Below, one piece after another: positions 1 through 5,953 of a stretch of 5,953 nucleotides of DNA. Each line of letters starts with the position of its first letter. Position 1 is the stretch's first letter. The translations under genes and the position numbers were made by a program. The stretch is taken from contig CALCPL010000159.1 of the NCBI GenBank assembly GCA_937897125.1, positions 1-5,953 of the forward strand, in the 5' to 3' direction. The notes under the pieces are model-generated. The model had not been told where the DNA came from. It searched no databases and saw only the letters and a program-made list of their open reading frames with translations. This DNA comes from an uncultured Candidatus Pelagibacter sp. GTDB lineage: Bacteria > Pseudomonadota > Alphaproteobacteria > Pelagibacterales > Pelagibacteraceae.

Positions 1-46
1 TACACCTCTCTATTCGTCGGCAGCGTCAGATGTGTATAAGAGACAG
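1..46 (+). other. Illumina Nextera adapter contamination (artefact)
   Basis: This stretch is synthetic library sequence. Bases 1-5 (TACAC) match the end of the P5 oligo. Bases 6-13 (CTCTCTAT) match a standard Nextera i5 index that I recall as S502/N502. Bases 14-27 (TCGTCGGCAGCGTC) are the Read 1 primer site and bases 28-46 (AGATGTGTATAAGAGACAG) are the Tn5 mosaic end. All parts are in the order and orientation of the commercial adapter, with no mismatch that I can see. Its base composition is also richer in GC than the AT-rich sequence that follows. It means the contig was assembled from untrimmed reads and that nothing upstream of base 47 is genomic. It should be trimmed before annotation or submission. 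Confidence 0.98.
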
Positions 47-2704
47 CCTTAATACATATTGAAGTATTCCACCATTTTTATAATACTCTAATTCGTTTTT
101 AGTGTCTATTCTGCATAGAGTTTTAATTTTTTTAATGTCTCCTGAAGCATATTTTATTTCAACCTGTACATGATCTGATGGATTTATACCTTCTTCTATT
201 TGAAGAACAGTTATCAATTCTGACCCAGTTAATTTTAAGTTAAGCCTATCGTGTCCTTCGGTGAATTGTAGAGGTAAAACACCCATTCCAATTAAATTAG
301 ATCTATGAATTCTTTCAAAACTTTCTGCTATTACAACTTTAACACCTAATAGTTTTGTTCCCTTGGCAGCCCAATCTCTTGATGATCCTGTTCCATATTC
401 TTTACCACCTATAACAGCAAGATCAGTTCCTCTTTTTTTATATTCCTCTACAGCATTATAAACTGGCATCACTTTTTCTTCTGGATATAGTTTTGTAAAC
501 CCACCCTCTGTTCCTGGTGCCATTTCATTTCTTATTCTAATATTTGCAAAAGTTCCTCTCATCATTACTTCATGATTGCCTCTTCTTGATCCATAGGAGT
601 TATAATCTGCTGGAAGTATTTGATGTTCCATAAAATACTCACCTGTTGGGCTTTCTTTTTGAATATTTCCTGCTGGAGAAATATGATCAGTTGTAACCAT
701 ATCCCCTAAAATTAAAAGTGGTCTTGCATCTTCAATAGGTTTAAACCCCTCAGGTTGATCAGGTAAATTTTCAAAAAATGGTGGTTTCTTTACATAAGTT
801 GAACTTGAATCCCAATTGTAAATACTTGTATTTTCAGTTTTAATTTCTTGCCACTGCTTAGGTCCTTCTGAAACATTTGAATATCTTTTAACAAACATCT
901 CTGCGTTAAGAGATTCTCTTAATGTGTCTTCAATTTCTTTATTAGATGGCCAAATATCTTTTAGAAAAATATCTTTACCGTCTTTACTTTTTCCTAAAGG
1001 TTCTTTGTATAAATCAAATTCCATGTGACCAGCAAGTGCATAAGCTACTACAAGTGGTGGTGATGCTAAGTAATTAGCTTTTATATGTGGAGATATTCTT
1101 CCTTCAAAATTTCTATTTCCAGATAAAACTGACACAGCATAGATGTTTTCCTTGTCTATTGCTTTAACAATTTCCTCAGGTAAAGGGCCTGAATTTCCTA
1201 TGCAAGTCGTGCAACCATATCCAACTAAATTAAAACCAAGTTTATCTAAAAATACATTTAGTCCTGCTTTTGCTAAATAATCAGTAACCACTTGTGATCC
1301 TGGGGCTAATGATGTTTTTACCCATGGTTTAGTTTGTAAACCAAGTTCAACTGCTTTTTTTGCTAATAACCCAGCTCCAATTAATACATTTGGATTAGAT
1401 GTGTTAGTGCATGATGTTATAGCTGCAATTAATATTGAACCATCTTTAATTTCATAATCTGTTCCTGATACTTTTGAAACATGTTGCTCTTTTCTACTAG
1501 TTGCATCCTCAAAAACTTTTTTAAATCCAGTAGATGCATCTGTTAACAAAACTTTGTCCTGAGGTCTTTTAGGTCCTGAAATAGTTGGAACAACTGTAGA
1601 CATGTCTAGTGATAAAGTATCAGTAAATTCAATTTCATCATTAGCCCACAAACCTTGTTCTTTTGCATATTTCTCAACTATATTGACTGTGTTCTCATCT
1701 CTTCCTGAAAATCTTAAATATTTTAATGTCTCTTCATCAATTGGGAAAAAACCACATGTTGCTCCATATTCTGGTGCCATATTTGCAATTGTTGCTCTAT
1801 CAGCAAGAGTTAAATTCTTTAAACCTTCTCCATAAAATTCAACAAATTTTCCAACAACTCCTTTATCTCTTAACATTTTTACTACCGTTAAAACTAAATC
1901 TGTTGCAGTCGTGCCCTCTGGCATTTTATTTATTACTTCAAATCCTATTACTTCAGGGATTAACATTGAAATTGGCTGACCTAACATTCCAGCTTCTGCT
2001 TCAATTCCACCAACGCCCCACCCAAGAACAGATAAGCCATTAACCATAGTAGTGTGACTATCAGTACCAACTAATGTGTCAGGAAATAAATAATCCTCAT
2101 CTTGAAATTTTTCAGACCAGACAACTTTTGATAAATATTCTAAATTAACCTGGTGGCAAATCCCAGTTCCAGGAGGAACAATTCTAAAATTATTAAAAGC
2201 TTGTTGTCCCCATTTTAAGAAGGAGTATCTCTCACCGTTTCTTTTAAATTCAATATCAACATTTTTTTCAAATGAATCTGATTTTGCAGATTTATCTACT
2301 TGCACAGAGTGATCAATAACTAGATCAACTGCAGAAAGTGGATTGATTGTATTAGGATCTTTATTTTTTTCTTTAACCGCTTCTCTCATAGCTGCAAGAT
2401 CAGCTACAGCTGGAATTCCAGTATAGTCTTGTAATAAAACTCTAGCTGGCCGGTAAGCAATTTCAGTTAATGATTTTTTAGTTTTTAACCACTCTTTAAT
2501 TGCCTCAATTTGGCTTTTAGTAACCGACAGATCATCCTCGTACCTTAAAAGGTTTTCTAACAAAACTTTTAATGACTTTGGAAGTTTTGAGATCCCATCT
2601 AAACCATTTTTTTCTGCTTCTGCTAAAGAATAATATTTATAATCTCTATCATTAATACTGATAGTTTTCAGAGAGTTATAAGAATTTTGATTTCCTGGTT
2701 TCAT
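47..2704 (-). CDS. acnA: Aconitate hydratase AcnA, 3' end missing
   Basis: Aconitase interconverts citrate and isocitrate through cis-aconitate in the TCA cycle, in the cytoplasm, using a [4Fe-4S] cluster. The protein is the long AcnA/IRP1-type form. The cluster ligands are visible as C432 in ITSCTNTSNP and C498/C501 in GYGCTTCIG. Other family motifs are GTDSHTTM (213-220), RISPHIKANY (536-545), and, after the linker, TTDHISPAGN (671-680). The swivel domain carries YGSRRGNHEVMMRG (704-717) and YGTGSSRDWAAKG (770-782), which include the substrate-binding serine and arginine residues. About 886 residues are genuine, close to the roughly 890 usual for AcnA. The start at 2704 gives a normal N-terminus and follows the lysE-family stop by 5 bases, with no Shine-Dalgarno sequence. 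The final genuine residues are GGILQYVLR. The frame then enters the adapter and gains LSLIHI plus a TGA that are not real, so the natural last few codons and stop are lost. Confidence 0.97.
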
Positions 2705-4901: not shown

Positions 4902-5804
4902 ATGATTAAAAACAATACGCGTAATTTAATTGGCTATGGTTCTAAAATACCTAAAATTAAATGGCCAAACAATGCACGTATTGCGCTTCAGATAGTACTA
5001 AACTATGAAGAAGGAGCAGAAAACTGTGTTCTCAATGGTGATAAAAATTCAGAGATTTTTCTATCAGAAATTATTGGTGCTCAACCTATAAAAGGAAGAC
5101 ACATGAATATGGAATCTCTTTATGAGTATGGTTCAAGAGCAGGTTTTTGGAGGCTACATAAATTATTTCAAGAAAAAAAAATTCCTATAACTATTTTTGG
5201 AGTTGGTATGGCGTTGGAAAAGAACCCTGAAATCTGTAAAGCTATAATAGAATCTAATTATGAAGTGGCTTCTCATGGATGGAAATGGATTGACTATCAA
5301 AATATTAAAAAATCAGAAGAAAAAAAGCATATGCAGCTTGCTATTAAAACGCATACAAAAATTTTTGGTAAAAGACCTAACGGATGGTACACGGGCAGAT
5401 GTAGTCCAAATACTAGGGATTTAGTTATGGAAGATGGTGGCTTTTTATATGACAGCGACTCATATAGTGATGATTTGCCTTATTGGGAAATTAGAAATAA
5501 AAAAAAACAATTAATTATTCCTTATACACTTGATAATAACGACATGAGATTTGCAACTAATCAGGGATTTAATACGGGTGATCATTTTTTTACATACTTA
5601 AAAGATAGCTTTGATGCTCTATATGAAGAGGGTAAAACAAATCCAAAAATGATGTCTGTAGGGTTACACTGTAGATTAATTGGAAAACCAGGAAGAATTC
5701 AATCTTTAAAAAAATTTTTAGATTACATAATGAAGCATGAAGATGTATGGATATGTAAAAGAATTGATATAGCCAAACATTGGATTAAAAACTACTCTAA
5801 CTAA
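4902..5804 (+). CDS. puuE: Allantoinase PuuE (polysaccharide-deacetylase fold)
   Basis: PuuE hydrolyses allantoin to allantoate in purine catabolism. It is unrelated to the classical amidohydrolase-type allantoinase AllB and has been reported to act without a metal ion. The 300-residue protein is one NodB-like domain with the PuuE signature throughout: DLIGYG-like RNLIGYG (7-13), VLNYEEGAENCVLNGD (32-47), RHMNMESLYEYGSRAGFWR (66-84), ASHGWKWIDY (123-132), GWYTGRCSPNTR (161-172), LYDSDSYSDDLPYW (182-195), NDMRFATNQGFNTGD (213-227) and SVGLHCRLIGKPGR (252-265). NYEEG stands where NodB deacetylases have their metal-binding DD motif, and the usual HxxxH keeps only H125. The length matches stand-alone PuuE proteins of about 300-310 residues, with no fused OHCU decarboxylase domain. 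The first ATG is chosen because the family N-terminus begins just upstream of RNLIGYG. Its stop overlaps the allantoicase start, which supports the pathway call. Confidence 0.96.
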   Translation: MIKNNTRNLIGYGSKIPKIKWPNNARIALQIVLNYEEGAENCVLNGDKNSEIFLSEIIGAQPIKGRHMNMESLYEYGSRAGFWRLHKLFQEKKIPITIFGVGMALEKNPEICKAIIESNYEVASHGWKWIDYQNIKKSEEKKHMQLAIKTHTKIFGKRPNGWYTGRCSPNTRDLVMEDGGFLYDSDSYSDDLPYWEIRNKKKQLIIPYTLDNNDMRFATNQGFNTGDHFFTYLKDSFDALYEEGKTNPKMMSVGLHCRLIGKPGRIQSLKKFLDYIMKHEDVWICKRIDIAKHWIKNYSN

Positions 5805-5953
5805 TGTCAAAAAAAATTATTTTTACAAATGGACTTATTGATTTAGCTCAACCTAGACTAGGCTCCAAAGTAATTTTTAAAACGGATGATTTTTTTGCTT
5901 CTGCAAATAGAATTATCGACCCTCTACCACCAATTTTTAAAGACGGACTATTT
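5804..5953 (+). CDS. alc: Allantoicase, N-terminal 50 codons (cut by window end)
   Basis: Allantoicase hydrolyses allantoate to ureidoglycolate and urea, the step after allantoinase. Only 50 residues are present, in one open frame that reaches the window edge. They contain the characteristic start of the first allantoicase repeat: GLIDLAQPRLGSKVIF (10-25), then KTDDFFAS (26-33), then DPLPPIF (39-45). I recognise this as the DLAS-RLGGKV-x-TDDFFAP pattern of the family. The ATG shares its A with the last base of the puuE TAA stop (TAATG), so translation is probably coupled to puuE, and there is no Shine-Dalgarno sequence. A full allantoicase is usually about 330-350 residues, so most of the gene, including the second repeat, lies beyond this window. 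Confidence 0.88.
   Translation, partial: MSKKIIFTNGLIDLAQPRLGSKVIFKTDDFFASANRIIDPLPPIFKDGLF

Follow-up and report, generated by a model that had tools for sequence, protein, structure and literature searches.

The first 46 bases of the window, meaning the whole 5,953-nt stretch of DNA analysed here, are a residual Illumina Nextera i5-side adapter (S502 index) that caps one end of a contig from SAR11 (Pelagibacteraceae) (probability about 0.98). They are a laboratory and assembly artefact of a known kind and have no biological meaning. The remaining contig is ordinary SAR11 DNA and carries acnA, a LysE-family transporter, a CsaA-like tRNA-binding protein, argE, the allantoinase gene puuE and the start of an allantoicase gene. 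The GC content is 48% within bases 1-46 as opposed to 31% in the remaining window.

The window opens with TACAC, followed by CTCTCTAT, TCGTCGGCAGCGTC and AGATGTGTATAAGAGACAG (5 + 8 + 14 + 19 = 46 nt), and 46 of these 46 nt are identical, with zero mismatches, to the 3' part of the 70-nt S502 Nextera i5 adapter. The final 19 nt of this adapter are the Tn5 mosaic end. All parts are exact and follow each other in the commercial order, from the P5 tail via the 8-nt index and the Read 1 site to the mosaic end, which bears out the proposal of the earlier, sequence-only reading that an untrimmed Nextera i5 adapter caps the contig. The S502 oligo is printed, as far as the Read 1 site, in PMC7757419, which gives CTCTCTAT as S502, a member of the commercial index set. 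The adapter consists of the following parts:

1..5, plus strand: 3'-terminal 5 nt of the P5 flow-cell sequence; identical to the S502 oligo (PMC7757419, printed to the Read 1 site)
6..13, plus strand: i5 sample index S502, CTCTCTAT; match to the S502 oligo (PMC7757419, same printed part)
14..27, plus strand: Nextera Read 1 primer site, TCGTCGGCAGCGTC; oligo comparison (PMC7757419, same printed part)
28..46, plus strand: 19-nt Tn5 mosaic end, AGATGTGTATAAGAGACAG; exact, one copy in the window, and 0/200 dinucleotide shuffles of the window contain a copy even when 3 mismatches are allowed

The adapter had also been called intact, which it is not: 46 of 70 nt are present, and the missing 24 nt all belong to the P5 portion, of whose 29 bases only the last 5 are found in the window. 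The window resembles the Nextera/Nextera XT i5 adapter (S502) known from assembled contigs in sequence, part order, index, orientation and position at the contig end, but retains only the last 46 of the 70 nt of the full adapter. Among other Illumina oligos, the longest exact run in common with the window adapter is 9 nt for the P7 oligo and 8 nt for two TruSeq oligos; for the Nextera Read 2 oligo it is the 19-nt mosaic end. The window's own aconitase turned up in a protein search on a contig of 5953 bases, and the window therefore appears to be the whole contig, with the adapter at its very end (positions 1-46) and the mosaic end facing the insert. At the right end of the window no mosaic end was found. 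Mosaic ends are likewise contained in the circularisation junction of Nextera mate-pair libraries, where two inverted mosaic ends lie back to back. That bases 1-46 stem from such a junction instead of a standard library adapter is exceedingly unlikely, as the window contains one mosaic end, no second inverted copy was found in it, and the copy present adjoins the standard i5 side with its index.

To locate the boundary with native DNA, relatives were collected by a genome-contig scan with the window's ArgE protein, and the best 80 of 575 confirmed relatives, all assigned to Pelagibacter, Pelagibacteraceae or Pelagibacterales, were aligned to the window by DNA, which succeeded for 80/80. A break at 46/47 had been predicted, and this prediction agrees with the alignments, none of which (0/80) starts left of base 47. 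Informative relatives, 65 in number, are those with a match beginning no later than base 200 and with over 30 nt of own sequence beyond it to the left; among them, the alignment starts at base 47 in 33, at base 48 in 18 and at bases 50-66 in 14. From base 47 onwards, the best relative among the 80 (L121) shows 94.1% identity over 4795 nt, and it carries native acnA 3' sequence at the point where the window has adapter. Homology to SAR11 relatives independently supports a junction at 46/47. The sequence identity, the part order, the position and this junction with native DNA are direct observations. The features on both sides of this junction are:

46..47, no strand: artificial adapter/native junction; homology start points of SAR11 relatives
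47..2704, minus strand: native part of acnA, 886 codons; from the open reading frame (ORF) list, with NF006757 and TIGR01341 AcnA above their cut-offs
26..46, minus strand: adapter as false acnA 3' end, LSLIHI plus TGA stop; translation of ORF 26..2704

The acnA gene in the window lacks the last 3 codons and the stop of its relatives. AcnA of four relatives (L121, L122, L123 and L125) ends in ...ILQYVLRNMI followed by the stop, whereas the reading frame of the window runs to ...ILQYVLR and then continues into the adapter-derived LSLIHI and a stop; in a fifth relative examined for its AcnA end (L135) the motif sought was not seen. As LSLIHI and the stop come from the adapter, the 892-residue ORF consists of 886 native and 6 adapter residues. 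The gene is therefore to be read as 3'-truncated and not as an aconitase variant that has gained a different C-terminus. In a homologue search with aconitase residues 693-892, the best 120 of 8000 scored proteins comprise 117 with a terminal NMI, the protein of the window itself and two with other, adapter-like tails. These two end in NMTVSYTHLRAHET and NMTVSYTHLTLPTKRIV, which resemble translations of an adapter in a different frame; in that frame the adapter of the window yields VSYTHLTLPTNREV.

These two adapter-like tails belong to the public aconitases P0002 and P0010 (VSYTHLRAHET and VSYTHLTLPTKRIV) and apparently originate from other adapters read in another frame. By their codons, an index TATCCTCT (S503) would account for the tail residues KRIV, and the i7 side for RAHET. 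No description of such adapter-derived tails was found in literature titles and abstract openings, although they may nonetheless have been reported.

As the mosaic end does interrupt a gene, acnA, and is itself an engineered derivative of IS50/Tn5 ends, the contig might also be read as a natural Tn5/IS50-like end inserted into acnA of the source cell. We regard this as so improbable as to be negligible. The window's mosaic end is related to natural IS50/Tn5 ends, but its outward flank is not a native IS50 arm: it consists of the synthetic Read 1 site, the S502 index and the P5 tail, and the contig terminates in this adapter. In addition, none of the Pfam matches found in the six tested reading frames of the window is a transposase. 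The exact mosaic end occurred in 0/397 sampled genomes of the relatives' family, which lends weak support only, because a count of 0 would likewise result from assemblies that had been cleaned or trimmed at their ends, and in 0/5 close genomes, one of which is also among the 397.

The sequence-only reading had also proposed that further contig ends from the sample may have this flaw. Residual adapters of the same kind were found in viral contigs. IMG/VR viral contigs were queried with the 33 nt that make up the Read 1 site and mosaic end, which returned at least 120 stretches, and with the form including the S502 index, which returned 10 viral contigs, 4 of them already in the first set; the combined set comprises 126 loci with 128 occurrences of the adapter core. 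The S502 form is spread over five IMG dataset numbers. Of five IMG dataset numbers looked for in the literature, 3300002821 was found, in one paper. The sequence-only reading had suggested that the index could identify the library. CTCTCTAT does narrow the library, but it is a stock index shared by these 10 contigs from five datasets, and was rejected as a library identifier.

In 127 of the 128 occurrences the core starts at most 120 nt from the end of the retrieved stretch, which is the entire contig for many, though not all, of the 126 loci, and faces inward. This bears on a variant within the residual-adapter reading, in which the adapter would have lain inside the sequenced insert as a chimera formed before sequencing by ligation or PCR template switching. 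The sequence of a contig alone cannot tell such a chimera from read-through; however, simple read-through agrees with an adapter that occupies the extreme contig end and turns its mosaic end inward, as well as with the position and shared orientation of the 127 viral occurrences, and we consider a chimera very unlikely. The letters preceding the core misfit P5 plus an 8-nt index in 4/128 occurrences (L002, L054, L075 and L101). The sole internal adapter among the 128 occurrences lies at 2154-2186 of L002, near an NN gap, and is probably a scaffold join of adapter-capped contigs. The reverse strand of another locus, L058, opens with the identical 46 nt followed by a different insert.

Mosaic ends occur near both ends in 9 of the 126 loci. 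Two of these nine, both short viral contigs, have perfect inverted terminal repeats, of 49 nt in L201 and of 46 nt in L205, where 45 of the 46 nt are adapter:

L201, 1-49 and 4972-5020: false inverted terminal repeat, same truncated i5 adapter at both ends
L205, 1-45 and 5072-5116: false inverted terminal repeat, same truncated i5 adapter at both ends

By established Illumina chemistry, Read 1 begins past the mosaic end, and where inserts are short the i5 sequence therefore enters the data mainly as a tail at the 3' end of Read 2. For the residual adapter of the window we infer a read-through route followed by an assembler step. Tn5 tagmentation would have cut the DNA directly ahead of the last three acnA codons, and on a short insert Read 2 would have passed through and on into the i5 adapter in reverse complement, first the mosaic end, then the Read 1 site, the index and the start of P5. 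If the adapter was then incompletely trimmed from the reads, the assembler may have extended the contig into it and halted where many read-through fragments have the adapter in common. Such a Read 2 tail stands in the contig as its reverse complement.

The retained adapter length was modelled by a toy, error-free de Bruijn simulation with k = 31, 47, 55 and 77. At k = 31, 47 and 55 the commonest retained lengths were 3-5 below k and the remainder was scattered; at k = 55 and coverage 40 the six commonest lengths accounted for 377/795. At k = 77, lengths of 66 and 70 occurred with wide scatter and no comparable peak below k. On the basis of the simulation, a k of about 49-51 would correspond to the 46 nt, which does not by itself prove an assembler limit. 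In real datasets, the retained length was 43-47 in 12/15 ends (3300010389), 49 in 4/4 ends (3300002851), 35-68 across 14 ends (3300040985) and 36-120 across 6 (3300013414), with dataset numbers assigned for L001-L080 and L201-L206 only and the other 40 occurrences being without a number. As the lengths differ between real datasets, a limit set by k can be one factor at most, and with the scatter of the simulation and these differences no exact meaning for the retained 46 nt was reached.

The adapter matters as a data-quality point only: bases 1-46 are to be masked and sister contigs are to be screened. Other public records, too, contain proteins with adapter-like tails and contigs with false inverted terminal repeats, and on balance we think it likely that untrimmed Nextera ends are a recognisable mark in public data that is able to mislead automated annotation, by way of false C-terminal tails, such as LSLIHI or VSYTHL..., and false inverted terminal repeats. 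If this is true, tests that judge completeness by terminal repeats could mistake short adapter-ended viral contigs for complete genomes.

The 46 nt were matched at least partly by 30/50,697 phage records, some of which are duplicate entries of one phage, and by 8/72,556 plasmid records. In the phages MZ092003, MK373775 and MK170160 the Read 1 site and mosaic end lie deep inside long records, and annotated genes cover them in two of the three, suggesting that the assemblies were misjoined or left uncleaned.

At the opposite end of the window, after argE, positions 4902-5953 carry puuE followed by the start of the allantoicase gene. Only the first 50 codons of the latter are present, and at E = 2.4e-8 its match does not reach the curated cut-off, which a fragment of 50 residues would not be expected to do. 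Among the best 80 relatives, 78 of which have at least 1.5 kb of sequence after argE, only 4 (L125, L133, L135 and L139) have puuE and the allantoicase start there, indicating that this purine-degradation pair occupies a variable site.
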